A DNA stretch of 44,995 bases, taken from NCBI GenBank assembly GCA_016650245.1, contig JAENWD010000062.1:1-44995 (forward strand). The letters are read 5' to 3'. Shown in pieces: positions 13,659 through 34,082 of the stretch (the first letter of the stretch is position 1; each line of letters starts with the position of its first letter). The notes under the pieces are model-generated. The model did not search any database, was not told where the DNA came from, and worked only from the letters and a program-made list of their open reading frames with translations. Made by a program: the position numbers and the translations under genes. The stretch comes from Vicinamibacteria bacterium (lineage in GTDB: Bacteria; Acidobacteriota; Vicinamibacteria; Vicinamibacterales; JAENWD01).

Positions 13659-15617
13659 TCAGGGCCCTCGGCGGGCTGGCGCCAGCCGGGTCAAGACGCG
13701 TGGGAGGGGCGCAAGCAGGCCCGAGGCGTAGGCCACACTGCGTGTCTCTCCATCCGGGCCCAACAGCACCAGTGACACCCCGCGCTCGAGTGTGAGCGCG
13801 TGCCGGCGGTTGGCGACGACGTGGCCGAAGCCGGCGCGGCGCATCGTGTCGGCCGGCAGCCACGACTCCATCCGCACGTCCAGGTGCACGCCGGCCACGC
13901 GGAGGGCAGCCCGGAAGGGCTGGTTCTCCCGGCGATCCAGCACGGGCGCTTCGCCGAGTCGACCGGCTAGTACTTGATAGGACGGTCCCACCGCCAGCAT
14001 GGCCGCTCCGGAAGTGAGTTGCTGCGAGGCCTCGGCCAGTTCCTGCGCGTCAAAGGGCAGGTCGCCGTAGGGCGCCAGCAACGCGAGCACGTAGATGGTG
14101 TCGGCGGGCAGGGCGCCAAGGCGTGCTGCCAGCGGCCGGGCGTCGACGCGGGGGTCCGGTCCGAAGGTAAAGAGCCCGCCGTAGGAGGCCTCGGCGATTC
14201 GGCGGCTCTGGGGCGTCATCACCACGTCGCGTCCGGCGGCCAGGTTGTCGCGGACCAGGAACGGCAACGTCAGCACGCGATCGGTGACGCGTGCGACGTT
14301 GAGGTCAGGCCGCACGTGCCTGGCGTAGTAGTCGAGCCCGTTTTCGAGTTGCCAGTTGATGTCGGCCAGCAGCAGTGCGTTGGCGCCAACGCCGCGCGTG
14401 AGATCGTCGAGCCAGCTGATGGGTCGTGTGTCGTCGTGGCGATCGACGGCAGGCCATGTGTCCCAGACCCGCCCGGCGGGCACGGCAAACAGCGCCACCG
14501 TCAAGACGACAGACGCCGCGCCGCGGGCTGACGCGGGCAGAGACGCCGGAAGTCGCCAAACCGCCGACGCGCCGAGGGCCGCCGCCAGGATCACGATCTG
14601 ATGCGACGGCAGGAAGAACACGTGCACGTCGCCGACGTTGTACGTGTAGGCGAACACGAAGGCGGTGCCGTACGCCAGCAGCAGCACGGCCAGCATCTGC
14701 CACCGGCGCCACAGGGAGGCCAGGCCGACCAGAGCCAGGGCGACGCCCGGCAGGCCGATTTGCTGCTGCAGATCGAAGGCGTACAGCCCGGCGCGGCGCT
14801 TCAGTGCCGTCTCGTGCACGCCCAGCACCATCGTCGAGCGCCAATCGGACTTGGTGACGTCGAACCAGAACGTGCGCACTCCGTCGGCCAGCGACGGCGT
14901 GGGGTCAGCGACCTGCCAGAGATACGCGGCATTCCACAAGTACTGCGACGCCCCGAGTGCCGCGCACGCGACGGCCAGGCTCACGCCTCTGCCTGAGGTC
15001 GCCTGCGAAAGCCCCCCGGGCGTGAGGACGATGAGCGCCGTCAGGGCCGGCGCCAGCAACACCATCATCAAGTGGTTGCCGAACCCCAGCGCGTAGAGGC
15101 CCAAGAGCAGCGCCAGGCGGGGGAGTGACGGGCGCCGGTGCCACCACATCCCAGCGGCCAGGACGAGCGCGGTCAGCAGCAGGTGCAACGTGTACACCTC
15201 GCCGATGATGGCCTGCGACCAGAACGTGTAGGAGGCGCCGAGCAGCAGGCCTGCCCAGGCGCCAGCCAGCACCGATCCGGTGAGCGCAGACGCCACCCAG
15301 ACGAGCGCGCCGCAGGCGGCTCCGCCGGCCAGGGCCGAGGTGAGGTTCAGGCTGTGGGCAGGGTCGCCGCCAGCGACGGCAAAGACCGTGTTGGCGAAGG
15401 CGTAGTAGAGCGGATAGGCCTGTCGAGGTGTGAGACGCCAGTCGCCGACAGCCGCCTGAAAGGCCGCGGTATCGCCGAAGTCGAGTCCCGGCAGCAACGT
15501 GCCGTGATAGCAGGCGAACGTGAGCGCGGTGACAACCGCGCAGGCGGCCAGGCGCTGGCCACGGGCCGGCGCGGCGGGCAGTAAGGATGGGTCTGGCACG
15601 CGGATGGCGCGTGCCAT
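13659..15617 (-). CDS. DUF2723-type polytopic membrane protein (glycosyltransferase-like)
   Basis: A 652-residue integral membrane protein with about ten hydrophobic segments between residues 25 and 375 and a soluble C-terminal part. The N-terminal block LPGLDFGDTAAFQAAVGDW, followed by YPLYYAFANTVF, SYTFWSQAIIGEVYTLHLLL and GFGNHLMM, matches the DUF2723 family, which resembles GT-C protein O-mannosyltransferase-like enzymes. The Asp of the LDFGDT loop is the probable catalytic/lipid-sugar contact by analogy with GT-C proteins. No substrate can be assigned. The C-terminal half contains repeated alanine-rich helices and may be periplasmic. Its start codon lies within nested inverted repeats (see 15611-15650). 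lolA follows 36 bp downstream. Confidence 0.8.
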   Translation of the reverse strand: MARAIRVPDPSLLPAAPARGQRLAACAVVTALTFACYHGTLLPGLDFGDTAAFQAAVGDWRLTPRQAYPLYYAFANTVFAVAGGDPAHSLNLTSALAGGAACGALVWVASALTGSVLAGAWAGLLLGASYTFWSQAIIGEVYTLHLLLTALVLAAGMWWHRRPSLPRLALLLGLYALGFGNHLMMVLLAPALTALIVLTPGGLSQATSGRGVSLAVACAALGASQYLWNAAYLWQVADPTPSLADGVRTFWFDVTKSDWRSTMVLGVHETALKRRAGLYAFDLQQQIGLPGVALALVGLASLWRRWQMLAVLLLAYGTAFVFAYTYNVGDVHVFFLPSHQIVILAAALGASAVWRLPASLPASARGAASVVLTVALFAVPAGRVWDTWPAVDRHDDTRPISWLDDLTRGVGANALLLADINWQLENGLDYYARHVRPDLNVARVTDRVLTLPFLVRDNLAAGRDVVMTPQSRRIAEASYGGLFTFGPDPRVDARPLAARLGALPADTIYVLALLAPYGDLPFDAQELAEASQQLTSGAAMLAVGPSYQVLAGRLGEAPVLDRRENQPFRAALRVAGVHLDVRMESWLPADTMRRAGFGHVVANRRHALTLERGVSLVLLGPDGETRSVAYASGLLAPLPRVLTRLAPARRGP

Positions 15618-21631: not shown

Positions 21632-22024
21632 CTAGCGTTTGCTGAACTGGAAGCGCTTGCGCGCCCCCGCCAATCCGTACTTCTTGCGTTCCTTGGCGCG
21701 GGCATCGCGCGTCAGGAACCCACTCGACTTGAGCGCCCGGCGCAGCTCGGCGTCAAACACGCACAGCGCGCGCGCGATCCCCAGGCGCACCGCGCCGGCC
21801 TGCCCGGATACACCGCCGCCGCTCACAAGGGCGAGCACGTCGAACTTCTCGGTGGTCTCGGTCACCACCAGCGGCTGCTTGATCTGGGTCCGCAGCGCCT
21901 CGGTGGGGAAGAAAGCCGCAAACGCCCGCCGGTTGATCGTGATCTCGCCCGAGCCGGGCCGCAGATAGACACGGGCGGTGGACGTCTTGCGGCGGCCAGT
22001 GCTGTAGAACTGATTCAATGCCAC
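21632..22024 (-). CDS. rpsI: 30S ribosomal protein S9
   Basis: Small-subunit protein S9 (130 residues), which contacts the P-site tRNA through its basic C-terminus. Signatures: [55 protein letters not shown], and [28 protein letters not shown], which ends in the invariant Lys-Arg. It starts at GTG 22024, one base after the rplM TAA; the frame is open further upstream, but only within rplM. The L13-S9 pair is near-universal. Confidence 0.97.
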
Positions 22025-22025
22025 G

Positions 22026-22457
22026 TTACGCGACCTCGAGCGACGACGGTTTCTGAGCGGCGTGCGGATGATCCCCGCCCGCGTAGACCTTGAGCTTGCG
22101 ATACATCGCATCGCCCAGTTTGGTCTTGGGGAGCATCCCCCGGACGGCTTCTTCCATCAGCCGCACAGGATTCTGCTGGCGGACGTCTTTGGCGCGCTCT
22201 TCGCGGAGACCGCCCTCGTAGCCGCTGTGCCGGCGGTAGAGCTTCTGCTCTTCCTTCCGGCCCGTCAGCTTGACCTTGGCCGCATTGACGACCACCACGT
22301 GGTCGCCGGTGTCCATCGACGGCGTGTAGATGGCCTTGTGCTTACCCTGCAGCAGTTTGGCGGCCGTGGAGGCCACCCGGCCGAGCACCCGCTCGCCCGC
22401 ATCAATCACATGCCACGCGCTCGAGATGTCCTTCGGCGTGGCCGTAAACGTACCCAT
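22026..22457 (-). CDS. rplM: 50S ribosomal protein L13
   Basis: Large-subunit protein L13, 143 residues, an early assembly protein. Conserved parts: [50 protein letters not shown], and [37 protein letters not shown] 22457 is used because the L13 homology starts about ten residues later; the open frame continues to 22577 but would run through the promoter. It is the first gene of the translation operon, about 40 nt downstream of a TTGACA-17-TACCAT promoter, and diverges from pilM. Confidence 0.97.
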
Positions 22458-22503
22458 GAGTGCGCGATCCCTTCCGCAATCGACCGACAAACGGCAAACC
22501 CAA

Positions 22504-22532
22504 ATGGTACGTGGAGTTGGCCGGGGTGTCAA
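22504..22532 (-). promoter_or_regulatory. Sigma70-type promoter of the rplM operon
   Basis: On the minus strand TTGACA (22532-22527), a 17-bp spacer, then TACCAT (22509-22504). The -35 is perfect and the spacer ideal. The predicted start site near 22497 gives a leader of about 40 nt before rplM. Confidence 0.8.
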
Positions 22533-22570
22533 GTCGCTGGCGGGTGCCCGGCCAGGGGGGCTGCGACGCC

Positions 22571-22587
22571 TGTGCACAGTGTTACAC
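22571..22587. promoter_or_regulatory. Two adjoining short palindromes (TGTGCACA and GTGTTACAC)
   Basis: TGTGCACA (22571-22578) is directly followed by GTGTTACAC (22579-22587), upstream of the rplM promoter in the divergent rplM/pilM region. They look like operator half-sites. No regulator can be named. Confidence 0.35.
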
Positions 22588-22662
22588 GGAGCGGCTCATG
22601 CCACGCCGAGCAACGTCCGATAACACCCCTCGAACAGGTCTCGCGCCGCTCCCCGCGGTGAC

Positions 22663-22689
22663 CAAAAGTGTAATCGACTGACACTTTTG
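22663..22689. promoter_or_regulatory. Operator-like inverted repeat CAAAAGTGT-N9-ACACTTTTG
   Basis: Perfect 9-bp arms (22663-22671 and 22681-22689) separated by 9 bp. It is AT-rich in a GC-rich genome and lies in the rplM/pilM intergenic region (22458-22825). Its centre is about 130 bp upstream of the start site predicted from the sigma54-like promoter, the usual distance for an enhancer-binding regulator. Confidence 0.5.
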
Positions 22690-22779
22690 TGATCGAGCCA
22701 GGGGGTGCGACGCACGGCCTGTTGACGGCGATGCCAATTCTGGCGCGGCGGCGCTCAACCGAACGAGCGCCCAGGTGGC

Positions 22780-22795
22780 TGGCATTGGCTTTGCC
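22780..22795 (+). promoter_or_regulatory. Sigma54-like -24/-12 promoter of the pil operon
   Basis: TGGCATTGGCTTTGCC matches the conserved TGGCA and TTGC blocks of the sigma54 consensus, with exactly 10 bp between the GG and GC dinucleotides. The predicted start site is near 22806, 20 nt before pilM. No competing sigma70 promoter is clear in this gap. Confidence 0.5.
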
Positions 22796-22825
22796 CCTGC
22801 AGCGCGACGACAACGGCCGGTGAAC

Positions 22826-23899
22826 ATGGAATTCAGTCTCTTTCGGAAACCCAAGACACTCGTCGGCCTCGACATCGGATCGAGCGCGGTGAAGGCCGTC
22901 GAGCTGAAATCGGCTGGAAAGACCGGCTACAAGGTGGTCGCCTTTGCCAGCGAGCCGGTGCCGCCCGACACGATCGTCGATGGCGCCATCGTCGACGGGG
23001 GGGCGGTGGCCGACGCCATCCGACGGATATTCGACACCAAGCGCTTCAAGGCGAAAGACGTCGTCGCCTCGCTGTCGGGCAACGCGGTCATCGTCAAGAA
23101 GATCGCGCTGCCGGTGATGACCGAGGCCGAGCTCGACGAGTCGATCCACTGGGAAGCCGAGCAGTACATCCCGTTTGACATTCAGGACGTCAACCTCGAC
23201 TACCAGATCCTCGGGGCCGCGCCGGGCGAGGGCGGCAAGCAGACGATGGACGTGCTGCTGGTAGCGGCCAAGCGGGACAAGATCGCCGAGTACACCGGAG
23301 TCATCAGCCAGGCGGGGCGGACGGCGGTCGTCGTCGACATCGACGCATTTGCCGTGCAGAACTGTTACGAGGCCAACTACGGCCTCGATCCCGGCGTGAC
23401 GGTGTTGCTCAACGCCGGCGCCTCCGCCATCAACGTCAACTTCATCGCGGGCGAGCAATCGCTGTTCACGCGCGACATCTCGGTGGGAGGCAACGCCTAC
23501 ACCGACGCGGTGCAGCGCGAGTTCAACCTGGCGTTTGACGCCGCCGAGCGAGCCAAGAAAGGCCAGCCGGTCGACGGCGTGCCGTTTGAGGATGTCCGGC
23601 CCGTCCTTCGCACGGTGAGCGAAGCCGTCGTCCTCGAGATCCAGAAGACGTTTGACTTCTTCAAGGCCACCACCTCTCAGGACAAGATCGACCGCATCGT
23701 GCTCTGCGGCGGCGCGAGCCGGGTCGACAGCCTGGCCGAACTGCTCGAGGAGCGCTTCGGCGCACCGGTGGAGTTCCTCGATCCGTTCAAGGCCGTGACC
23801 TTCGACGCCCAGCGGCTCGGCATCGACAACCCGGCCGACATCGCCCCGACGGCGGCGGTGGCTGTGGGTCTGGCGCTCAGAACGGTGCACGGCCGATGA
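22826..23899 (+). CDS. pilM: Type IV pilus assembly protein PilM
   Basis: Cytoplasmic actin-like ATPase-fold protein that binds the N-terminus of PilN and couples the pilus motor to the alignment complex. The 357 residues have LVGLDIGSSAVKAVELK (phosphate-1 loop), LSGNAVIVKKIALPVM, ELDESIHWEAEQYIPFDIQDVNLDYQIL, VVDIDAFAVQNCYE, RDISVGGNAYTDAVQREF and IVLCGGASRVDSLAELLEERFG. ATG 22826 is chosen over an upstream in-frame start at 22775, because the latter would lie before the sigma54-like element and the homology begins at FSLFRKPKTLVGLDIG. It heads pilMNOPQ and overlaps pilN by ATGA. Confidence 0.95.
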   Translation: MEFSLFRKPKTLVGLDIGSSAVKAVELKSAGKTGYKVVAFASEPVPPDTIVDGAIVDGGAVADAIRRIFDTKRFKAKDVVASLSGNAVIVKKIALPVMTEAELDESIHWEAEQYIPFDIQDVNLDYQILGAAPGEGGKQTMDVLLVAAKRDKIAEYTGVISQAGRTAVVVDIDAFAVQNCYEANYGLDPGVTVLLNAGASAINVNFIAGEQSLFTRDISVGGNAYTDAVQREFNLAFDAAERAKKGQPVDGVPFEDVRPVLRTVSEAVVLEIQKTFDFFKATTSQDKIDRIVLCGGASRVDSLAELLEERFGAPVEFLDPFKAVTFDAQRLGIDNPADIAPTAAVAVGLALRTVHGR

Positions 23900-24516
23900 T
23901 TCACATCAACCTGCTCGCCAGCGAGCGAGAGAAGCAGCCGCGCAAGGCGTCGGCCGGGTTCGACCTCGGACAGAAGGTCACGCTGGTCTGCAGCCTCATC
24001 CTGCTGGCCACTGCCCTGGGCATCGGCTGGTGGTGGTGGATGCTCGGTCGCGAGTCGGTGCGCCTGACCAGCGAGACCGCGACGGCCGAACGCGAGACGG
24101 CGCGCCTCAAGACCATCCTCACGCAAGTCGCGCAGTTCGAACGGCAGAAGCAGCAGCTGCAGGAACGCGTGAAGCTGATCGAGCAGCTGCGCAAGGGGCA
24201 GGGCGCGCCGGTCCACATGATCGACGAGCTGAGCAAGGCGATGCCAGAGATGCTGTGGCTCACCGAGCTCAAGCAGGATGGCGGCGATCTGACGGTCGAC
24301 GGCCGCTGCACGACGCTGACGGCGCTGTCGGACTTTGTCGGCAATCTCGAGCGCAGCGGCTATTTCCGCCGGCCCGTCGAAATCCTCGACAGCAAGGTCG
24401 AGCAGGCCACGGCGCCGGCCACCGAGCTGATCAGGTTCACGTTGAAGGCCACCTTCGCGATGCCCGGTTCAGAACCGGAACCGCCCGCCTCGGCGCGTCC
24501 GGGAGGACGGCGCTAG
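23896..24516 (+). CDS. pilN: Type IV pilus assembly protein PilN
   Basis: Inner-membrane protein of the pilus alignment subcomplex; its short cytoplasmic N-terminus docks on PilM. The 206-residue product starts with IHINLLASEREK, the conserved INLLP-type motif for PilM binding. A single membrane segment (about 29-49) follows, then a coiled coil (about 55-100) and a ferredoxin-like periplasmic domain containing LSKAMPEMLWLTELKQDGGDLTVDGRC. The tail is Pro/Arg-rich. It overlaps pilM by 4 bp and is separated from pilO by 59 bp. Confidence 0.93.
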   Translation: MIHINLLASEREKQPRKASAGFDLGQKVTLVCSLILLATALGIGWWWWMLGRESVRLTSETATAERETARLKTILTQVAQFERQKQQLQERVKLIEQLRKGQGAPVHMIDELSKAMPEMLWLTELKQDGGDLTVDGRCTTLTALSDFVGNLERSGYFRRPVEILDSKVEQATAPATELIRFTLKATFAMPGSEPEPPASARPGGRR

Positions 24517-24575
24517 GCGCCTAGGCGGCGACGCGAGTTTGTAGAGCGGTTCGCGAAGGTTCTCGATAGGAACGG

Positions 24576-25199
24576 ATGAACATGGGTCTTGGCCTGAACA
24601 AACTGCCCTGGAAGGCGCAAGTCGGCGTTTTCCTCGCCATCGCTGTGGCAGCGCTGGGCGGCTTCTATTGGTACTACGTCCAGGACGTGCGGGCGAGGCA
24701 CGCCACCGAGCAGGCCAAGCTCGATCGCCTTCGCGCCGACATCACCAAGGGCTCGGCGACGGCGCGGCAGTTGCCTCAGTTCCGGCAGGAGGTCGGCGAG
24801 CTCGAGGCGCGCCTCGCCAACCTGCGCGCGGTGCTGCCAGAAGAGAAGGACGTGGGCGACCTGCTGCGGCGCATTCAGACGCTGGCGACGCAGTCGAACC
24901 TGCAGATCAAGGGGTTCAAGCCTGCGCCGATCGTCACGCGGCAGATGCACGCCGAGTGGCCGATCAACCTGGAACTCGACGGCACGTATCACAACCTCGG
25001 CGTGTTCTTCGATCGCGTGGGCAAGTTCTCGCGAATCATCAACGTCGGCGCCGTGAAGATCAAGGCGAAGGAAAAGCCGGCGCCCGGGTCCACCATCGGC
25101 GTGTTGTGCACCGCGACCACCTTCGTGCTGATCGAGCCGAAGGCCGCACCGGTGCCAAGTAAATCCGCGGCTCCGGCCGTACCGGCGAGGGCCAGCTGA
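24576..25199 (+). CDS. pilO: Type IV pilus assembly protein PilO
   Basis: Inner-membrane partner of PilN in the alignment subcomplex. The 207 residues begin with LNKLPWKAQVGVFLAIAVAALGGFYWYY, where the membrane segment spans about 14-32. A coiled coil (about 38-80, ARHATEQAKLDRLRADITKG) and a periplasmic ferredoxin-like domain with LPEEKDVGDLLRRIQTLATQSNLQIKGFKPAP follow; this last block is characteristic of PilO. An AGGAACGG before ATG 24576 can act as a Shine-Dalgarno. It is followed by pilP after 2 bp. Confidence 0.93.
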   Translation: MNMGLGLNKLPWKAQVGVFLAIAVAALGGFYWYYVQDVRARHATEQAKLDRLRADITKGSATARQLPQFRQEVGELEARLANLRAVLPEEKDVGDLLRRIQTLATQSNLQIKGFKPAPIVTRQMHAEWPINLELDGTYHNLGVFFDRVGKFSRIINVGAVKIKAKEKPAPGSTIGVLCTATTFVLIEPKAAPVPSKSAAPAVPARAS

Positions 25200-25201
25200 C
25201 C

Positions 25202-25660
25202 ATGACGACCTTCGTGCTTCTGGCCGTGCTGACGGCGTTGGTGCCGGCACAGACGCCCTCCGCGCCGCCCCCGGCGCCGGCGGCAACGCCCGCCGCGGCT
25301 GACTCTTTCACCTACAACCCCGAAGGGCGACGCGATCCGTTCGTCAGCCTGGTGCGCGGCGGATCGGACCAGCGCGGCGCGCGGACAGGAGCGTCCGGCG
25401 TGGACGGTCTCGCGGGCCTGTCGGTGGACGAAATCTCGGTGAGGGGCGTGGTGGCCGGACGAGCTGGCTACGTCGCCATGGTGATGGGACCGGACAACAA
25501 GACGTACATCGTGCGGCCCAACGACAAGCTGCTCGACGGCACGGTGAAGGCGGTCACCGCCCAGGGCCTGGTCATCTTGCAGGAAGTCAACGACCCGCTG
25601 TCGCTCGTCAAGCAGAAGGAAGTACGGAAGATGTTGCGCGGACTCGAGGAAGGGAAGTAG
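25202..25660 (+). CDS. pilP: Type IV pilus assembly protein PilP
   Basis: Periplasmic linker between PilNO and the PilQ secretin. The 152-residue precursor has a short hydrophobic N-terminus (about 3-17), a Pro/Ala-rich flexible stretch (18-34), the entry motif FTYNPEGRRDPFVSL (35-49) and a compact beta domain: LSVDEISVRGVVAGRAGYVAMVMGPDNKTYIVRPNDKLLDGTV. PilP is commonly a lipoprotein, but no lipobox Cys is visible here, so it is likely anchored by its uncleaved N-terminus or secreted. Two bp after pilO and 4 bp before pilQ. Confidence 0.9.
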   Translation: MTTFVLLAVLTALVPAQTPSAPPPAPAATPAAADSFTYNPEGRRDPFVSLVRGGSDQRGARTGASGVDGLAGLSVDEISVRGVVAGRAGYVAMVMGPDNKTYIVRPNDKLLDGTVKAVTAQGLVILQEVNDPLSLVKQKEVRKMLRGLEEGK

Positions 25661-25664
25661 TCCC

Positions 25665-27950
25665 ATGCGTCGATATGGCATTGCCCTCACGCTGACGGCA
25701 CTGGCGGCCTTCGTGGCGGCCGGACACGGCCGCGTGGCGGCCGCAACCGGTGCGCGCCTGACGGCGATCACCGCCACCGATGGCGCCGCGCCCGTGGTCC
25801 TCATAGAGGCCTCCGAGCCGGTGGCGTACCGCACAGCTCGGCCCGACCCGTTCACGGTGCTCGTCGATCTGCGTAACGTCGCCACCAGCGGTTACGCCAA
25901 CGGCTTCACCGCCAGGCCCGGCAGCCCCGTGCGCAGCGTCGGCGTCGAAAGCGCGCGCGACGCCGAAGGCCACCAGGTGGCCCGGGTGCGCGTGTCGCTG
26001 TCCGAGCCGATCAGCCATCGCGTGCGCAGTCAGCGCAATCTGATCTTTGTCGAACTGTCCGGGGACGCCGGCGTGGCGGGTGCGTCGACCCCGCCGCCGG
26101 TCAGCGCACGGATTGCACCGCCCGCGCCTGCATCAACGGCATCGCCGATGGCGGTGACCCCCGCACGCGCGCTGGTGGACGTGAAGACCAGCGTCGACGG
26201 CACCGCGACCAGCATCATCCTGGTCGGCAACGGACGCCTCGCGCCGTCGCACGTCGAGCGAGCCGGCACCAAGCGTCTCTACCTCGACTTTCCCGGCGTC
26301 GCCGCGGAGGCGCCTGCGGTCACCCTCGTCAACCAGGGGCCGATCGATCGCGTGCGCGTCGCCCTCAACAGCCAGAAGCCGATGGTCACGCGCGTCGTCG
26401 TGGATCTGGACCGCCCGGCCGCGCACCTGGTGGAGTCGGTGGGCGATGGCCGCGAAGTGAAGGTGACCTTCCGCGAAAGCGGCGCGACCGGGCCGCCCGT
26501 GGCTGTGCCGGTGGCGGTGCCAGTGGCACAGCCTGCGCCAGGCGCGGCTGCGGCCGAGCCGCCGGCCTCCGACATCGTCGATTTGACCGCGCCGGCTCCT
26601 GCCCCTCCGGTGGAGGTTGTGGAGACCCCGGTGCCGCCGCAGCCCTCGCGCGTGCTGACGCAAACGCCGGCGCCGTCGCAGGGCGTGGCGCAGGCGCCCG
26701 GCGGCAGGCAGTACACGGGGCACCCGATCAGCCTCGACTTCCAGGGCGCCGACCTTCGCGCCGTGCTCCGCACCTTCGCCGAGATCAGCGGCCTCAACAT
26801 CGTGATCGACCCGGCCGTGCAGGGATCGGTCGACGTCGCCTTGCGCGACGTGCCGTGGGACCAGGCACTCGACATCATCCTGCGGGCCAACAAGCTCGGC
26901 TACTCGGTGGACGGCACGATCGTCCGCGTGGCGCCGCTGACCGTGCTGGCCGACGAAGAAAAGCAGCGCCGGCAACTGGCCGAGCAGCAGGCCCTGGCTG
27001 GCGAGCTGGTGGTGATGACGGCGACGCTGAGCTACGCGACGGCCGACCAGATACGTCCGCTGTTGCTCAAGAGCGCGCTCACCCAGCGCGGGACGGTCGA
27101 AGTCGACACGCGCTCGAACACGCTCATCATCTCGGACCTGCAGTCGGCGCTCGACAAGGCATCTTCACTCATCGCGACGCTGGACCGCGCGCAACCGCAA
27201 GTGGAGATCGAAGCGCGTATCGTCATCACCAACAAGTCGTACCGCCGCGAGATCGGCGCGCAGCTCGGGTTGGGCGGTGAGATGTCACCGCGCCTGGGCA
27301 ACACGACGCCCCTGGCCTTCCCCAACTCCATCATCGGCGGTGGCCGCACCGGCGCGCCCAGCACGCCCGGCGCGCCCAACGCCGTCGATCTGGGCGTCAC
27401 CGGCGCGACCTCGGCCCTCGGCCTGGCGCTGGGCGCCGTCAACGGCGCGTTCAACCTCGACCTGGCGCTGACGGCACTGGAGAACGAGGGAAAGCTGAGC
27501 GTCATCTCGACACCCCGCGTGTCGACGCAGAACAACGTCGAGGCCGAGATTGCGCAGGGCACGCAGATTCCAATTCAGACGGTCGCCAACAACACCGTCA
27601 CCGTGACGTTCAAGGACGCCGCGCTGGTGCTGCGCGTCACGCCCCAGATCACCGCGGCCAACACCGTGATCATGAAGATCGCGCTCGAAAACGCGCAGGC
27701 CGACTTCGGCCGCAGCGTCAACGGCATCCCGCCCATCGACACGCAGCGCGCCAACACGACCGTGCTGGTCGGCGACGGGCAGACCACGGTCATCGGCGGC
27801 ATCTACTTCAGCTCGCAGGAAGCCCAGCAGGGTCGCACGCCGGTGCTCCACAAGATCCCGCTGCTCGGCTGGTTGTTCAGGCACGACCTGACGAACAACC
27901 AGAACAACGAGCTGTTGATCTTCATCACGCCGCGGATTCTCAAGAGTTAG
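25665..27950 (+). CDS. pilQ: Type IV pilus secretin PilQ
   Basis: Outer-membrane channel through which the pilus fibre passes. The 761 residues comprise a signal peptide (about 1-26), two AMIN-type domains (about 30-132 and 168-270) that bind peptidoglycan, a Pro/Ala/Val-rich linker (about 275-345), an STN/N0 domain (ISLDFQGADLRAVLRTFAEISGLNIVIDP, about 355-425), an N1 domain (TLSYATADQIRPLL to LIATLDRAQ) and the secretin barrel (about 510-761), with VISTPRVSTQNNVEAEIAQGTQIPIQT and GQTTVIGGIYFSSQEAQQGRTPVLHKIPLLGWLFRHD. It ends FITPRILKS, typical for PilQ. Last of the pilMNOPQ block and followed 20 bp later by two lipoprotein genes. Confidence 0.96.
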   Translation: MRRYGIALTLTALAAFVAAGHGRVAAATGARLTAITATDGAAPVVLIEASEPVAYRTARPDPFTVLVDLRNVATSGYANGFTARPGSPVRSVGVESARDAEGHQVARVRVSLSEPISHRVRSQRNLIFVELSGDAGVAGASTPPPVSARIAPPAPASTASPMAVTPARALVDVKTSVDGTATSIILVGNGRLAPSHVERAGTKRLYLDFPGVAAEAPAVTLVNQGPIDRVRVALNSQKPMVTRVVVDLDRPAAHLVESVGDGREVKVTFRESGATGPPVAVPVAVPVAQPAPGAAAAEPPASDIVDLTAPAPAPPVEVVETPVPPQPSRVLTQTPAPSQGVAQAPGGRQYTGHPISLDFQGADLRAVLRTFAEISGLNIVIDPAVQGSVDVALRDVPWDQALDIILRANKLGYSVDGTIVRVAPLTVLADEEKQRRQLAEQQALAGELVVMTATLSYATADQIRPLLLKSALTQRGTVEVDTRSNTLIISDLQSALDKASSLIATLDRAQPQVEIEARIVITNKSYRREIGAQLGLGGEMSPRLGNTTPLAFPNSIIGGGRTGAPSTPGAPNAVDLGVTGATSALGLALGAVNGAFNLDLALTALENEGKLSVISTPRVSTQNNVEAEIAQGTQIPIQTVANNTVTVTFKDAALVLRVTPQITAANTVIMKIALENAQADFGRSVNGIPPIDTQRANTTVLVGDGQTTVIGGIYFSSQEAQQGRTPVLHKIPLLGWLFRHDLTNNQNNELLIFITPRILKS

Positions 27951-27970
27951 GCAAGACGGAGCACAGGCAC

Positions 27971-28582
27971 ATGACTACCGTATTGATTCGTCGAACCGTT
28001 TGCCTCGGCCTGCTGGCCACCGTCGTGGCTGGGGCCTCCGGCTGCAGCAGCACGGTGCGCGAGGGTCGTTCGCCGGCCTACCTGATCGTGCAGCGCATCG
28101 AGGCCGCGTCGGGCGCCGAAGACGACATCTTCTCCGATGAGCTGTCGTCCGACGTGCTGACCAACAACTCGGTCTTCGAGGACCTGGCGCGAGTCACGTT
28201 CCGACTGGGCCTGAAAGACATCGGACCGGCCGGCGTGCCGACCTCGCCAACCGCGAACAACTTCATCACGGTCAACCGATACACGGTGACATTCCGTCGC
28301 ACCGATGGCCGCAACGCGCCTGGTGTGGATGTGCCCTATCCCTTCGAGGGCGCTGGCACCGTCACCGTGTTGGCGACCGACTCGACGATGTCGTTCGTCA
28401 TCGTCCGGACGCAAGCCAAAGTCGAGTCGCCCTTGAGGGAACTGACCAACGGCGGGACCGTGCGCACCATCTCGACCATCGCCGACATCACGTTCTACGG
28501 CCGCGACCAGGCGGGCAACGACGTGTCGGTGTCCGGCGCGATCAGCGTGAACTTCTCGGATTGGGGCGATCCGGACGCGTAA
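27971..28582 (+). CDS. Lipoprotein of unknown function linked to the pil operon
   Basis: A 203-residue predicted lipoprotein: basic start, hydrophobic core (about 9-22) and lipobox GASGC (Cys25), followed by SSTVREGRSPAYLIVQRIEAASGA. The mature part is predicted mostly beta-sheet, with no Cys and a C-terminal DITFYGRDQAGNDVSVSGAIS block like a beta-sandwich edge. I recognise no named family. It lies 20 bp after pilQ and 35 bp before the PKD lipoprotein gene, so a pilus-associated surface or periplasmic role is suggested by context only. The 35-bp gap contains no obvious terminator. Confidence 0.8.
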   Translation: MTTVLIRRTVCLGLLATVVAGASGCSSTVREGRSPAYLIVQRIEAASGAEDDIFSDELSSDVLTNNSVFEDLARVTFRLGLKDIGPAGVPTSPTANNFITVNRYTVTFRRTDGRNAPGVDVPYPFEGAGTVTVLATDSTMSFVIVRTQAKVESPLRELTNGGTVRTISTIADITFYGRDQAGNDVSVSGAISVNFSDWGDPDA

Positions 28583-28617
28583 AGACGCGGTGACGTAGAC
28601 ATCAGGCGGACATATCC

Positions 28618-29877
28618 ATGGCTTCCATCATTCGCTTCACCGCTGTCGCCGCACTCGCGCTGTTTGCAGGCGCGTGCACGACGAAGAAAACCGAACCGCC
28701 GGCCCCCTCGGGTCCCTCCGAGCTCGGCACGACGCTGGCCATCGCGGCTACGCCCGACCTGCTGCCGCAGGACGGGTCGAGTACGTCGCAGGTCGTGATT
28801 CGCGCCTTCGACCCCAATGGGCAGCCCGTGCGGAACCTGTCGCTGCGGGTCGAAATGGCCGTCGGCGGCATCATCACGGACTTTGGACGGTTGTCGGCCA
28901 AGGACATCTCGACGGGCAGCGATGGCCGCGCCGTCGTCGTCTATACCGCGCCGCAACCGGTGGACAACGTCGACCGCAACACGCGCGTGCAAATCATGGT
29001 CACGCCGGTCACCGGCAACTTCAACGGCGCCCAGGCGCGCTACGCCGAGATTCGCCTGGTGCCGACCGGTGTGGTCGGCGGCGAGACCAAGGTGCCCGAT
29101 TTCACCTTCAGGCCTACGGCGCCCAAGCAGCTCGAGACGGTGACGTTTGACGCCTCCGACCCGACGCTCGACCAGACGCTGACGAAGTACGAGTGGGACT
29201 TCGGCGACGGCAGCAAAGGCCAGGGCCGGGTGACGTCACACCAGTTCCGCGAGGTCGACAGCTACACGGTCACGCTGACCGTCACCGACATCGCGGGTCT
29301 CAAGGGCTCTCGCTCGAAGAGCGTGCCGGTGGGAACCTCGGGAGTCCCGGTGGCCAACTTCGTCTTCTCTCCGGCGGAGCCGGGCATCGGAGAAGAGATC
29401 GTGTTCAACGCGTCAGGCTCAACCACCGTGGCGCCGCGGGTCATCGTCAGCTATGACTGGCAGTTCGGCACCGACCGCACCGGGTCCGGCATGATCGTCC
29501 TCAAGAAGTATGACACCCCGGGGACCTATGTCGTCTCGCTCACCGTCACAGACGACGCTGGCAACAAGTCGACGACGACCCAGTCAGTCACCGTTGCCGC
29601 CAGCAGCCCGGGCGGGTTGACGGCTGCGTTCACCTTCTCGCCGACAGGACCCACGCCAGGGGTCGTCGTCAACTTCAACGCGACGACGTCCACCAGTGCT
29701 GATCCGATCGTCAACTACAAGTGGGACTTCGGAGACGGCGGCACCGCCAGCTCGGCGCTGCCGACTCGCACGCACGCTTACGCAGCCCCTGGGGCCTACA
29801 TCGTCACCTTGACGATCAAGGACTCGAAGGCCCGGACCGCGACGACGACCAAGACCGTCACGGTCGCGGCGCCCTAG
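28618..29877 (+). CDS. PKD-repeat lipoprotein with an N-terminal Ig-like domain
   Basis: A 419-residue predicted lipoprotein with lipobox FAGAC (Cys20). After a short Pro-rich linker, residues about 35-145 form a bacterial Ig-like (Big_1-type) domain with LPQDGSSTSQVVIRAFDPNGQPVRNLSLRVE. Three PKD domains follow (about 158-238, 243-328, 333-419), each with the signature near its second strand: KYEWDFGDGS, SYDWQFGTD and YKWDFGDGG, and ends such as SYTVTLTVTDIAG. PKD domains are typical of surface and adhesion proteins. With pilQ and an unknown lipoprotein directly upstream, a role at the pilus/outer-membrane interface or as an adhesin is plausible, but not shown. Confidence 0.88.
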   Translation: MASIIRFTAVAALALFAGACTTKKTEPPAPSGPSELGTTLAIAATPDLLPQDGSSTSQVVIRAFDPNGQPVRNLSLRVEMAVGGIITDFGRLSAKDISTGSDGRAVVVYTAPQPVDNVDRNTRVQIMVTPVTGNFNGAQARYAEIRLVPTGVVGGETKVPDFTFRPTAPKQLETVTFDASDPTLDQTLTKYEWDFGDGSKGQGRVTSHQFREVDSYTVTLTVTDIAGLKGSRSKSVPVGTSGVPVANFVFSPAEPGIGEEIVFNASGSTTVAPRVIVSYDWQFGTDRTGSGMIVLKKYDTPGTYVVSLTVTDDAGNKSTTTQSVTVAASSPGGLTAAFTFSPTGPTPGVVVNFNATTSTSADPIVNYKWDFGDGGTASSALPTRTHAYAAPGAYIVTLTIKDSKARTATTTKTVTVAAP

Positions 29878-29886
29878 GCAGTCGGC

Positions 29887-29892
29887 TAGACT
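29887..29892 (+). promoter_or_regulatory. -10-like TAGACT before the TPR gene
   Basis: TAGACT lies 7 nt before the GTG at 29900, in the layout expected of leaderless transcription. No clear -35 element. Read-through from the pil operon is an equal possibility. Confidence 0.3.
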
Positions 29893-29899
29893 GTCCAGC

Positions 29900-30424
29900 G
29901 TGCCGGACAGCACTCGCATTCAGGAGTTACGGCGCCGGATCCAGCAGGATCCGGCGTCGCTTGCATTTGCCCCGCTCGCCGAGGAGCTCCGGCGCGCCGG
30001 CCGGCTTGGCGAGGCGGTCCAGACATGCCGGACCGGCCTCTCGCGACACCCGGAATACGCCACCGCCCGTGCGACGCTGGGTCGAGCACTGCTCGACCAG
30101 GGCGAGCTCGACGCGGCGCTCGCCGAGCTGAGGGCCGTGCTGGCCGCCGCGCCCGAGCATCTTGCCGCGATCAAAGGCATTGCCGAGGTCCATGCGCGAC
30201 GCGGCGAGGACGCCGATGCGCTCGCCACGTATCGCCGCGCGCAGCTGCTGGCGCGCGAGGACCGCGAGCTGGCGCGCGCGATTGCGGCGCTCGAACACAC
30301 GCTCGCGCCGACCGGGCTCGCCGCTGCGACCGCCAGCGAGAACGATGGCCAGACAGCCTTCGTGGTTCGGCGGCTGGAGCAGTTCCTCGACCGCATTCTC
30401 GCCGACCGTGCCCGCCGCCACTGA
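29900..30424 (+). CDS. Tetratricopeptide-repeat protein
   Basis: A 174-residue soluble protein made of about four TPR helix pairs: FAPLAEELRRAGRLGEAVQTCRTGLSRHPEYATARATLGRALLDQGELDAALAELRAVLAAAPEHLAAIKGIAEVHARRGEDADAL; the A/G-A spacing of consensus TPRs is clear. No signal peptide is visible. Start at GTG 29900, 22 bp after the PKD gene. The function is unknown; TPR proteins mediate protein-protein contacts. Codons 12-19 contain a perfect 10-bp inverted repeat. Its stop overlaps the aminopeptidase start by 17 bp. Confidence 0.8.
   Translation: MPDSTRIQELRRRIQQDPASLAFAPLAEELRRAGRLGEAVQTCRTGLSRHPEYATARATLGRALLDQGELDAALAELRAVLAAAPEHLAAIKGIAEVHARRGEDADALATYRRAQLLAREDRELARAIAALEHTLAPTGLAAATASENDGQTAFVVRRLEQFLDRILADRARRH
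29933..29956. repeat. Inverted repeat inside the start of the TPR gene
   Basis: CGCCGGATCC (29933-29942) and GGATCCGGCG (29947-29956) are perfect complements separated by AGCA. The hairpin lies in codons 12-19 of the TPR gene, 34 nt after its start codon. Confidence 0.6.
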
Positions 30425-31559
30425 CCGGCCGCCGCTGGCGGTACGGCACACTCGGGCCCGCGAGCTGATGGCCCGGGCCGGCGTCACGCGCCTGGCGGTC
30501 ACCTCGCCCCCCAACGTCACGTGGCTGACCGGCTTTGACGGCTCGACGGCCTGTGCCGTGGTCGAGCCCGACCGGGTCGTGCTGGTCACCGACCGGCGCT
30601 ACGCCGAGGCCGCGACGGCGTTGGCGGCAGACGGAGCGATGAGCCTGGTGCTGGTGGAGCAGACCTACGACGAGACGCTGGCCTCGCTCATTGCCGCCGG
30701 CGCGGCACCGGCGGGAATCGAGGCGGGCCATCTGACCGTGCAGCGGCAACGGTGGCTGGCCGCGGTCCTGGCCGCTGGCGGGCGTGGGCACGGGGCCCTG
30801 GTCCCGACGATGGATGTGATCGAGGCCGGGCGCCTGGTGAAGGACGCGTGGGAGATCGAGCGGTTGCGCGAGGCGGGGCGTCGCATTTCGGCGGTGGCCA
30901 TCGGCGCATTGGCCGACCTGGCCCCGGGTCAACGGGAGCAGGACGTGGCCCAGGCCCTGGAGGCCGGACTGCGCCGCGCCGGCTTCACCCGGCCGGCATT
31001 TGATACGATTGTGGCCTCCGGCCCGCGTGCGGCGTTGCCACATGGGCGTGCCTCGGACCGGACCATGGCCGCCGGCGACCTGGTGGTGCTGGACTTTGGC
31101 GGGGTCTACGGCGGATACTGCGTCGACTTGACGCGCACGGTCGTGCTTGGGGCGCCCACGGCGGAAGCCGCCCGCGTTCATGGCGCAGTTGCCGAGGCGC
31201 AGCAGGCAGCCATCGCCGCATTGGCGCCCGGCGTGGCGGTGTCCGAGGTCGATCAGGCCGCACGCGCGGTGCTGGCCAGGCATGGTCTGGCCGACCGATT
31301 CGTGCACGGCACCGGCCATGGTCTGGGTCTGGAAGTTCATGAAGCCCCGAGAGTGGGGCCGGCGCGGCCGGCGCCCCACGCGCCGCTGCCCGGTACGGTC
31401 GTCCTACCCGACGTGCTGGCGGCCGGGATGGTGGTGACAATCGAACCTGGCGCCTACATCCCCGGTTGGGGGGGCGTCCGCATCGAAGACGACCTGCTCG
31501 TGACGGCCACCGGCGCCGAATGGCTGACCCGGGTGCCCGTCATGCTGTCGGTCCACTGA
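30408..31559 (+). CDS. M24 family metallopeptidase (Xaa-Pro aminopeptidase/dipeptidase-like)
   Basis: Cytoplasmic dinuclear-metal peptidase cleaving X-Pro bonds. The 383-residue protein has a creatinase-like N-terminal domain (VTSPPNVTWLTGFDGSTACAVV) and the pita-bread catalytic domain with all five metal ligands: Asp229 and Asp240 (VVLDFGGVYGGYCVDLTRT), His304 (GTGHGLGLEVHEAPRV), Glu346 (TIEPGAYI) and Glu360 (VRIEDDLLVT). An insertion of roughly 15-18 residues, rich in Pro, separates HEAPRV from the Glu-bearing strand. The GTG at 30408 gives the best N-terminus and a 17-bp overlap with the TPR gene; ATG 30468 is the alternative. In many bacteria this peptidase gene, efp, accB and accC are consecutive; here efp is absent. 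Confidence 0.88.
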   Translation: MPAATDRPPLAVRHTRARELMARAGVTRLAVTSPPNVTWLTGFDGSTACAVVEPDRVVLVTDRRYAEAATALAADGAMSLVLVEQTYDETLASLIAAGAAPAGIEAGHLTVQRQRWLAAVLAAGGRGHGALVPTMDVIEAGRLVKDAWEIERLREAGRRISAVAIGALADLAPGQREQDVAQALEAGLRRAGFTRPAFDTIVASGPRAALPHGRASDRTMAAGDLVVLDFGGVYGGYCVDLTRTVVLGAPTAEAARVHGAVAEAQQAAIAALAPGVAVSEVDQAARAVLARHGLADRFVHGTGHGLGLEVHEAPRVGPARPAPHAPLPGTVVLPDVLAAGMVVTIEPGAYIPGWGGVRIEDDLLVTATGAEWLTRVPVMLSVH

Positions 31560-31593
31560 CGCCCCAGGGCCCGAGCCCGAGCCAACGAGGACG

Positions 31594-32058
31594 ATGGACT
31601 TCGAGGAGATCAAGCAGATTCTCGCCCTGGTCAAGGAGCACGAGCTCGCGGAGTTCGAGCTGGCGCATCAGGACTTCAAGATCCGCATCCGGAAGGACAC
31701 CGGCGTGCATGCGCTGGCGGCCGCGCCGGTGCCGGTCGCACCGCTGGTGGCCGCGCCCGCTCCGCAGGCTGCCGTGGCGCCAGGGCCTGTGGCTCCGGCC
31801 GTCGAGGATGGCGACGAGCTGGCGGTCGTGAAATCGCCGATTGTCGGGACCTTCTATCACGCCGCCGAGCCCGGCGCGCCGCCGTTTGTGTCGGTGGGCG
31901 AGGCGGTGCGAAAGGGCCAGGTGCTGTGCCTGATCGAAGCCATGAAGCTGATGAACGAGATCGAGTCGGAGTACGACGGCGAGATCGTCAAGGCTTACGT
32001 GGAGAACGGCAAGCCGGTGCAGTTCGGCGAACGCCTCTTCGCGATCAAGGCGACGTAG
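31594..32058 (+). CDS. accB: Biotin carboxyl carrier protein of acetyl-CoA carboxylase
   Basis: Carries biotin between the biotin carboxylase and carboxyltransferase of acetyl-CoA carboxylase, the first step of fatty-acid synthesis. The 154 residues start with a helical segment DFEEIKQILALVKEHELAEFELAHQDFKIRIRK, continue with an Ala/Pro-rich flexible linker (about 40-75), and end in the biotinyl domain with CLIEAMKLMNEIES, where Lys118 is the biotin site. VKSPIVGTFYHAAEPGAPPFVSVGEAV is the standard approach to that domain. GAGGACG before ATG 31594 may serve as a ribosome site. Stop 3 bp before accC. Confidence 0.96.
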   Translation: MDFEEIKQILALVKEHELAEFELAHQDFKIRIRKDTGVHALAAAPVPVAPLVAAPAPQAAVAPGPVAPAVEDGDELAVVKSPIVGTFYHAAEPGAPPFVSVGEAVRKGQVLCLIEAMKLMNEIESEYDGEIVKAYVENGKPVQFGERLFAIKAT

Positions 32059-32061
32059 CGG

Positions 32062-33438
32062 ATGTTCAAGAAGATCCTCATCGCAAATCGCGGCGAGATC
32101 GCCCTGCGCGTCATCCATGCCTGCCGTGAGCTGGGCATCAAGACCGTGGCGGTGTATTCAGAAGCCGACGAGCACGCGTTGCACGTCCGGTTTGCCGACG
32201 AAGACATCTGCATTGGACCGGCACGTAGCGCCGACAGCTACCTGAGCGTCCCCGCCATCATCAGCGCCGCCGAGATCACCGGCGCCGATGCCATCCACCC
32301 CGGCTACGGGTTCCTCTCGGAAAGCGCGTATCTGGCCGAGGTGTGCGAGGCGTGCCACATCCGCTTCATCGGGCCCGACCCACACGTCATCCGGCTGATG
32401 GGAGACAAGGCACGGGCGCGGCGGGCGATGAAGAAGGCCGGCGTGCCCATCCTGCCCGGATCGGACGGCCCAGTCGAGGGCGACGAGCAGGCGCAGAAAA
32501 TCGCCAGAGAGATCGGCTACCCGGTCATCATCAAGGCAACCGCCGGCGGCGGCGGTCGAGGCATGCGGGTTGTCGAGAATCCGGGCGAGTTGGCGCAGGC
32601 GCTGAAGCTGGCGCAGCGGGAAGCCGAGGCGGCCTTCGGCATCGGCGACGTCTACATCGAGAAATATGTCATCTCGCCTCGCCACATCGAGTTCCAGGTG
32701 CTGGGCGATCACTATGGCAGCGTCGTCTCGCTGGGCGAGCGCGAGTGCTCGATCCAGCGCCGGCACCAGAAATTGCTCGAAGAGTCGCCCTCGGTCGCGC
32801 TCACCGAGAAGATTCGCCGCAAGATGGGCGGGGTGGTCGTGGACGCCGCCAAAGCGGTTCAGTACGCCAACGCCGGCACCTTCGAGTTCCTGTTGGACAA
32901 GGACGGCCGGTTCTATTTCATGGAGGTCAACACGCGCCTCCAGGTCGAGCACCCGGTCACCGAGATGGTCACCGGCATCGACATCGTGAAGGAGCAGATC
33001 CGGGTGGCGGCGGGCGAGCGGCTGTCGTTCAAGCAATCCGAGGTCACCTTCACAGGGCACGCGATCGAGTGCCGCATCAACGCGGAGGACCCCGAGCGGT
33101 TCACGCCGTCGCCGGGCACCATCGACGTCTTCTCGCTGCCGGGTGGTCCGGGCGTGCGCATCGACACGGCCGCGCACACCGACTGTGTGATTCCCCCGTA
33201 CTACGACTCGATGATCGCCAAGGTGATCGCGCACGGGCGCGACCGCAGCGAGGCCATCGCGCGCATGCGGCGCGCGCTCGAGATGACCGTCATCGGGGGG
33301 ATCAAGACCACGATTCCCCTGCACCTCAAGATCCTCAACGACCCGGACTTCCAGGCCGGGCGCCTCAGCACCTCGTTCATGGACCGCTATCAGGCCGCCA
33401 GGCCGGACGGAAACACGCAACTTCGAGAGGCCGTTTGA
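32062..33438 (+). CDS. accC: Acetyl-CoA carboxylase biotin carboxylase subunit
   Basis: ATP- and bicarbonate-dependent carboxylation of the biotin on AccB. The 458-residue protein opens with [35 protein letters not shown] and continues with [10 protein letters not shown], the ATP-grasp glycine loop [12 protein letters not shown] (about 162-173), [36 protein letters not shown], and [22 protein letters not shown], all typical of bacterial AccC. It follows accB after 3 bp and its TGA overlaps the thiE TTG start (TTGA). The accA and accD subunits are not in the window. Confidence 0.97.
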
Positions 33439-34082
33439 GTCTTCCCGGGCTGTACGCCGTGGTGGACGCGGAGGTCGCCTTCGCGCACGGCTGGGCGCTG
33501 GTGGACCTGGCCCAGGCCGTGCTCGCCGGCGGCGCGACGCTGGTGCAGGTCCGTGGCAAGGCGCTGTCGTCGGTCGAGTTGCTCGAGGCGTCACGGCAGG
33601 TCGTGGCCATGGCCGTGCCGTACCGGGCAGCGGTCGTCGTCAACGACCGGGCCGATCTGGCCGTGTTGTCCGGTGCCGCCGGCGTGCACGTCGGGCAAGA
33701 CGACCTGTCGCCCGCCGATGCGCGCGCGATCGTGGGACCTGACCGGCTGGTGGGCGTCTCCACGCATTCGGCCGATCAGATCGCCGTGGCCGCCGGGGAG
33801 CCGGTGGACTACATCGCCGTCGGGCCCGTCTTCGGCACCACGACCAAGCACACCGGATATGACGCTGTGAGTCTCGACTTGGTGCGCCAGGCGGCGGCCA
33901 CCGGCAAAGACGTGGTCGCCATCGGCGGGGTGACGCTGGACCGGGTACCGCAGGTGTTCGCTGCCGGTGCGACCAGCGTGGCGGTCATCGCGGATTTGTT
34001 GGCGGGAGGTGATCCGACCGCACGCACACGCGCCTTCATGGCCGTCGCGGCGGCCGCCAGACCCGCGAAGGCCGCGCTATAA
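33435..34082 (+). CDS. thiE: Thiamine-phosphate synthase (ThiE/TenI family)
   Basis: Couples the pyrimidine and thiazole halves of thiamine phosphate. A 215-residue TIM barrel: [23 protein letters not shown] (thiazole/pyrophosphate side), [31 protein letters not shown] (the VNDR-DxA and HxGQDDL core), [11 protein letters not shown], and [27 protein letters not shown] ending in VAIGGV. The start is TTG 33435, overlapping the accC stop; ThiE homology begins within five residues. TenI-type paralogues with another role share this fold, but the conserved GQDDL and GPVF-TTTK blocks favour ThiE. No other thiamine gene is adjacent and there is no room for a thiamine riboswitch in the junction. Confidence 0.85.

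Follow-up and report, generated by a model that had tools for sequence, protein, structure and literature searches.

The pilotins Tgl, PilF and PilW, lipoproteins that serve the type IV pilus secretin PilQ, are TPR proteins, as the NCBIfam name of Tgl also states, and other pilotin folds are represented by MxiM, AspS and InvH. Myxococcus uses Tgl as its pilotin for PilQ (PMC10653833, available sections). In the Tad pilus of Caulobacter, CpaD is a 225-residue lipoprotein encoded immediately downstream of the gene for the secretin CpaC and, in a published model, encircles that secretin like a belt (PMC13170226, available sections), and in Thermus thermophilus PilQ carries a ‘crown’ of 13 spikes about 40 Å high, formed by a non-PilQ protein that the available part of that paper does not name (PMC5745081).

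Here we compare with these systems a locus from a Vicinamibacteria bacterium (Acidobacteriota), in which two lipoprotein genes, LP1 and LP2, directly follow pilMNOPQ; ‘the window’ denotes the whole stretch of 44 995 nucleotides analysed, which makes up contig C62 of a fragmented assembly of 4.26 Mb in 448 contigs. The closest precedents are CpaD/CpaC for the layout, the Thermus crown for a possible place and Tgl/PilQ for the partnership of a lipoprotein with a secretin, as far as the available sections of those reports go. LP1 resembles CpaD in being a lipoprotein of about 200 residues whose gene lies directly downstream of that of a secretin, but CpaD has an OmpA-like fold (PMC13170226, available sections) whereas LP1 is a predicted β-sandwich without a Pfam match, and CpaD serves a Tad pilus whereas LP1 belongs to a pilMNOPQ-type pilus. 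Like Tgl, PilF and PilW, LP1 in its proposed role would be a lipoprotein serving PilQ, but it lacks a TPR match and is predicted to be mostly β. The crown caps a type IV pilus secretin outside the outer membrane (PMC5745081, available sections), a place that LP1 or LP2 may possibly share.

On balance we lean towards the view that in many Acidobacteriota LP1 serves PilQ as a dedicated lipoprotein partner in the outer membrane, with LP2 a second lipoprotein of the same complex. LP1 forms a new protein family, whose role would be of a known kind. The phylum is abundant in soil, and to our knowledge its pili have hardly been studied. As a conserved, unnamed family tied to the pilus secretin, LP1 would add a component to one of the most widespread bacterial machines and would be a candidate source of the density around or above secretins for which PilQ does not account; with LP2 it makes a directly testable gene pair.

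The pilus operon and the two lipoprotein genes

The window carries pilM, N, O, P and Q in order on one strand (+), as in the pilMNOPQ operon of type IVa pili. The gene pilM (22829..23899; PF11104, 251.7 bits) overlaps pilN (23896..24516; PF05137) by 4 bp and is followed by pilO (24576..25199; PF04350) and by pilP (25202..25660), which is assigned from its position together with a PF04351 score of 24.5 bits, just below the cut-off of 25.6, and in whose translation no lipobox cysteine was seen. The secretin gene pilQ (25665..27950) encodes 761 residues recognized by TIGR02515 above its cut-off (E 3e-116), with an AMIN domain (PF11741) and a secretin domain (PF00263) at residues 604–760, which thus reaches the C terminus. 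The genome also encodes one PilB and three PilT-family ATPases above curated cut-offs, so that a type IVa pilus with retraction is to be expected.

LP1 (27971..28582, +) encodes 203 residues and starts 20 bp after pilQ, LP2 (28618..29877, +) encodes 419 residues and starts 35 bp after LP1, and each signal peptide ends at a lipobox-like cysteine (VAGASG/CSS in LP1, LALFAGA/CTT in LP2), which bears out the coordinates and gaps on which the preliminary description had attached two lipoprotein genes to the pilus operon. The mature part of LP1, beginning at Cys 25 (28043..28579), is delimited by the lipobox pattern, the family alignment A1 and the structure model; the 179 residues after the cysteine form one domain. 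A gene for a TPR protein with a GTG start (29900..30424, +; TPR families) follows 22 bp behind LP2 and is a neighbour in many relatives too; no signal peptide was seen in its translation, and it is probably not an envelope part.

A crude terminator scan of positions 22000–34000, which lists 8 sites over the two strands where shuffled sequence gives 5.3, places none on the + strand before 29930, in agreement with the earlier remark that no terminator is visible between pilQ and 27971. A terminator dividing pilQ from LP1 was accordingly rejected. The first + strand terminator-like site (29930–29959) lies inside the start of the TPR gene and has a 13-pair stem (10 G-C) and a weak T tail. Both lipoprotein genes may be co-transcribed with the pilus genes.

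Linkage of LP1 to pilQ across Acidobacteriota

A search by the LP1 sequence found the protein in 43 of 60 genomes of the order Vicinamibacterales, and one with the A1 profile in 75 of 247 genomes of the phylum; with 19 genomes common to both searches, 99 of 284 phylum genomes are LP1-positive. Surroundings were viewed in all 99: PilQ lies directly upstream of LP1 in 97, and in the other two the contig breaks off in front of the LP1 domain, at 179 bp in G047 and at 76 bp in G028. Chance adjacency is rejected, since the genes are linked in all 97 testable genomes. Between the PilQ frame and the LP1 domain lie 45 to 284 nt across the 121 loci measured, some genomes contributing two. The single LP1 of the window's genome is the copy beside pilQ; extra copies occur in G064 (L176, on G064:C298), where no PilQ was found in 4.4 kb upstream, and in G278 (L177), at a contig end. 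LP1 also stands behind PilQ in six named records, three of them Aminicenantes, of which at least one repeats a genome counted elsewhere. Beyond Acidobacteriota one single-sequence scan was made, and its six matches come from Vicinamibacterales, Acidobacteria, Aminicenantes (three) and one ‘Acidimicrobiia’ MAG (L039), which looks misnamed, its PilQ being 63% identical to that of the window. The linkage of LP1 to pilQ is real and old.

Presence and absence within the order were compared by searching with the last 424 residues of PilQ, which gave a strong match in 49 of 60 genomes (E 2.3e-81 or better). Eight genomes with assembly breaks at the locus were set aside: two with PilQ clipped at a contig end (G011, G032), two with LP1 at a contig end (G028, G047) and four in which a PilM search found a strong pilM with no strong pilQ (G010, G022, G038, G057). 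In G038 the contig stops about 230 bp after the PilM match, the contigs of the other three presumably end at the locus as well, and pilQ was probably lost to assembly breaks in all four. The remaining 52 genomes comprise 41 with PilQ and LP1, six with PilQ only, none with LP1 only and five with neither (Fisher p 1.8e-4, with kinship ignored and only five genomes in the last class). The PilQ-only genomes (G005, G013, G019, G023, G040, G049) belong to three families, and three of the five genomes with neither (G030, G033, G043, G052, G055) belong to one.

LP2 largely follows LP1: of the 43 LP1-positive genomes of the order, 42 have the LP2 N domain behind LP1, the exception being G059, where LP1 is followed by a TPR gene. 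No LP2 was found behind pilQ in the six genomes which lack LP1, where the next gene encodes a TPR protein (three), a peptidase (two) or nothing recognized (G019). Weak matches to the LP2 N domain on another contig of LP1-less G023 (E 4e-4) and on contig C53 of the window's own genome (E 1e-3) are probably other Ig domains. The linkage claimed from the window therefore holds in relatives, as the order genomes searched contain no separated pair, both genes being absent behind pilQ in six and LP2 alone in G059.

The pair is dispensable in the six PilQ-only genomes, which have neither LP1 nor an LP2 linked to pilQ, and this bears on whether LP1 is a functional pilotin, which would escort PilQ monomers to the outer membrane and be needed for their multimerization in place of the TPR pilotins PilF, PilW and Tgl. 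Such a role would suit a small lipoprotein encoded beside its secretin in 97 of 99 LP1-positive genomes, but the absence of LP1 from six order genomes that retain PilQ is unexpected unless it has been replaced. The window's genome has no protein above the PilW cut-off, a weak point in favour given that none of 14 control genomes has one either, and its 46 hits below threshold for the PilW (TPR) model indicate that a TPR pilotin may be present. We regard a pilotin as unlikely; because six relatives manage without LP1, a collar or crown at the secretin is favoured over it.

The same comparison speaks to the possibility that both genes are neighbours of pilQ by operon inertia, held there by shared transcription while serving the envelope in some way that has nothing to do with the pilus. 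The TPR gene, a peptidase gene and accB also remain nearby in many relatives, as if this part of the chromosome were conserved in general, and loss together with the pilus can be judged on only five order genomes, those without pilM and pilQ. LP1 was not found in any of these five, however, a copy lies by pilQ in every one of the 97 testable genomes (G064 having one more, unlinked), and LP1 keeps its place even where different genes come after it. We consider inertia quite improbable and a partnership of LP1 with PilQ the better account; as LP1 stays beside the secretin gene over such distances, it most likely works on the secretin.

LP1-like lipoproteins also occur where the A1 profile does not reach. 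Among 40 profile-negative genomes sampled around pilM, pilQ was visible in 36, and 19 of them encode a lipoprotein directly behind the pilQ stop, of LP1 size except in L123 (902 residues), 16 falling in groups B to E and G and three in a doubtful group F. Comparison of the LP1 profile (A) with those of the groups gave E 2.7e-7 for B, 1.4e-14 for C, 3.7e-16 for D and 8.4e-26 for G, while none of the controls (six other alignments and reversed ones) did better than E 8e-4 (probability 24%). Group E reaches B and D at about 5e-12 but A directly only at 0.005, no better than controls, and is thus tied to LP1 only through B, C and D. Group F (L127, L131, L140) consists of lipoproteins of the right size in the right place behind pilQ, but its E of 2e-4 and probability of 46% are hardly above the worst control, and its relationship was left open. 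Each group holds few sequences (two in B, six in C, seven in D, four in E, two in F and three in G), and the E-values of most sampled sequences against the group profiles arise by construction, the profiles containing most of them, though not L119, L123, L128, L140 and L149. The script that built the groups gave no start cysteine for six further members, and it cut L089 at a later cysteine, and L120 and L148 at an earlier one, than would be preferred.

By script, an LP2-type lipoprotein lies behind LP1 in 49 of 84 loci, some genomes being represented twice; three of the 35 others (L094, L162, L165) matched the LP2 N domain otherwise, and some of those stretches end early. L117, L127, L131, L142 and L145 are among the lineages with a TPR or other gene directly behind LP1. 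As several lineages keep LP1 beside pilQ without LP2, LP1 appears to be the core of the pair and LP2 more optional.

The other 17 of the 36 sampled genomes show no LP1-type lipoprotein behind pilQ and often have a Roadblock-like protein or a peptidase instead. Judged by eye, a small Roadblock/LC7-like protein is encoded within about 140 bp of pilQ in such LP1-less genomes (L125, L126, L134, L135, L137, L138, L143, L144, L150); that of L137, the one scanned, matches PF03259 below cut-off (E 0.004). Several LP1-bearing lineages place a Roadblock/LC7-like protein after the TPR gene, and none was seen at the corresponding place of the pil genes in the window. It is possibly an MglB-like polarity regulator in the pil operon.

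Sequence and predicted folds of LP1 and LP2

The earlier view that the 203-residue lipoprotein belongs to no recognized family is upheld, as LP1 matches no family in Pfam at E up to 1 or in NCBIfam at 0.1, and all 32 rows of A1 are likewise without a Pfam match at 0.01. Pfam, which we take to hold a CpaD model, thus places neither LP1 nor its relatives in the CpaD family, and the same searches, by Pfam and NCBIfam for LP1 and by Pfam for the alignment, returned no TPR pilotin of the PilF/PilW/Tgl kind. Of the 19 invariant columns of A1, nine fall in RxDGRNxPGVDVP and VRAQAKxExPL and three in SDV, the first column, C1, being invariant by construction because rows were cut to start at the lipobox cysteine; the RTDG part of the motif recurs in several diverged relatives. 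A1 leaves out L015, L023, L037, L042 and the window itself (L007), and a second alignment, A2, leaves out nine loci, namely the window and others clipped by locus ends or near kept ones. A strict lipobox pattern fits LP1 in 19 of 36 loci; elsewhere the cysteine was taken by eye or by a looser script rule (e.g. GASC, GAAC).

The AlphaFold2 model of LP1, built from the 32-row alignment (pLDDT 89.7), is a β-sandwich with two short helices. Its top fold match is a TRAP complex subunit (Z 10.1, rmsd 3.2, 118 aligned), followed by factor XIII (Z 8.8), RhoGDI (8.5) and pilus chaperones (about 8). The matches from Foldseek and VIA are all generic Ig-like sandwiches that do not indicate function, and identification of LP1 by fold was dropped. 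None of the MxiM, AspS, InvH or CpaD folds is among the LP1 fold matches listed, 50 rows from one search and those from a second, which cannot exclude them, and searching solved structures by profile produced a single match (E 0.5), which was not used.

Four LP1 frames of 451 to 903 residues (L087, L109, L171, L123) carry long C-terminal extensions, with no separate LP2 found behind them. They were considered as LP1–LP2 fusions, a reading we do not claim. A Pfam scan of L087, L109 and L123 found no family at E 0.001 in L087 and L123 and only a sub-cut-off β-sandwich match in L109.

LP2 had been described as a lipoprotein with three PKD domains, and these are confirmed at 29122–29316, 29347–29595 and 29650–29865 (PF18911, 162.7 bits against a cut-off of 27); a separate Ig-like domain in front of them had been overlooked. 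The conserved N-terminal part (28675..29079; alignment A3, VIA) comprises the cysteine of the lipid anchor, a GPSELG linker and an intimin-like Ig domain, whose model superposes on intimin 6tpl_A with Z 13.2 and rmsd 2.0 over 97 residues and whose sequence scores 19.8 bits for Invasin_D3, below the cut-off of 33. Despite the similarity of this domain to intimin and invasin, LP2 differs from them in being a lipoprotein encoded behind pilQ, and no intimin-type β-barrel was matched in LP2 by Pfam. For one PKD domain of LP2 the best row among solved PKD domains is 2c26 (Z 16.7, 87 aligned, 40% identity). The arrangement of the domains in the LP2 model is not trusted, given its pTM of 0.48.

It is the PKD part of LP2 that varies. 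A profile built from LP2 proteins counted no PKD copy in five, one in 10, two in 10, three in 19, four in three and five in one of 48 frames, taken from order relatives and named records, some being clipped by locus ends and one (L037) coming from a genome already counted. In A4, a hand-picked subset of 50 LP2-type proteins of the phylum, matches at E up to 0.001 were to Big_1 in 25 (judged by this E-value, not by the family cut-off), PKD in 16, TIG in 11 and Invasin_D3 in 10, from which it appears that other Ig-type modules replace PKD in distant lineages.

An intimin-like N domain (Z 13.2) with PKD or TIG modules in variable number, as in surface rods, would suit a surface adhesin, LP2 (with LP1) being co-expressed with pili but outside the secretin complex. 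The better conserved LP1, however, stays by pilQ where LP2 is unseen, and an independent adhesin would be expected to have moved in some lineages. That LP2 is an adhesin, which the preliminary description had entertained, is neither supported nor contradicted by the evidence here; as an explanation of both genes we find the adhesin doubtful beside a lipoprotein complex at PilQ.

A possible place at the secretin channel

An accessory role for the pilus, also suggested earlier, is supported by the conserved linkage, and the literature searched (mostly titles and abstract openings) contained no such pair at pil loci, in line with the earlier impression that none had been described. If LP1 is the partner of PilQ that we propose, the PilQ operon would also supply LP1, which after lipidation would sit at the secretin channel; there its β-sandwich could pack against PilQ as a ring, belt or collar and help it to assemble or stay anchored, and might in this way affect the pilus. 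The N part of LP2, with its lipid anchor, GPS linker motif and intimin-like Ig domain, may then bind either LP1 or PilQ, while the PKD or TIG modules of LP2 may form a rod of variable length which sets a spacing or contacts polysaccharide at the channel mouth. The size of an Ig-like domain is about the height of a crown spike (40 Å). More tentatively, and with rather less confidence than we attach to the partnership itself, LP1 might represent a phylum-wide unnamed β-sandwich class that replaces the usual PilQ accessories, with LP2 forming a crown or collar of Ig spokes whose length is tuned by lineage through PKD or TIG modules.

Two other genes of the window, both on the − strand, were also noted. 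A second secretin-domain protein of 613 residues (11102–12943) combines PF00263 and Secretin_N with TPR repeats in front, and a TMEM260-like candidate protein O-mannosyltransferase (PF11028, 56 bits) is encoded at 13659–15617.
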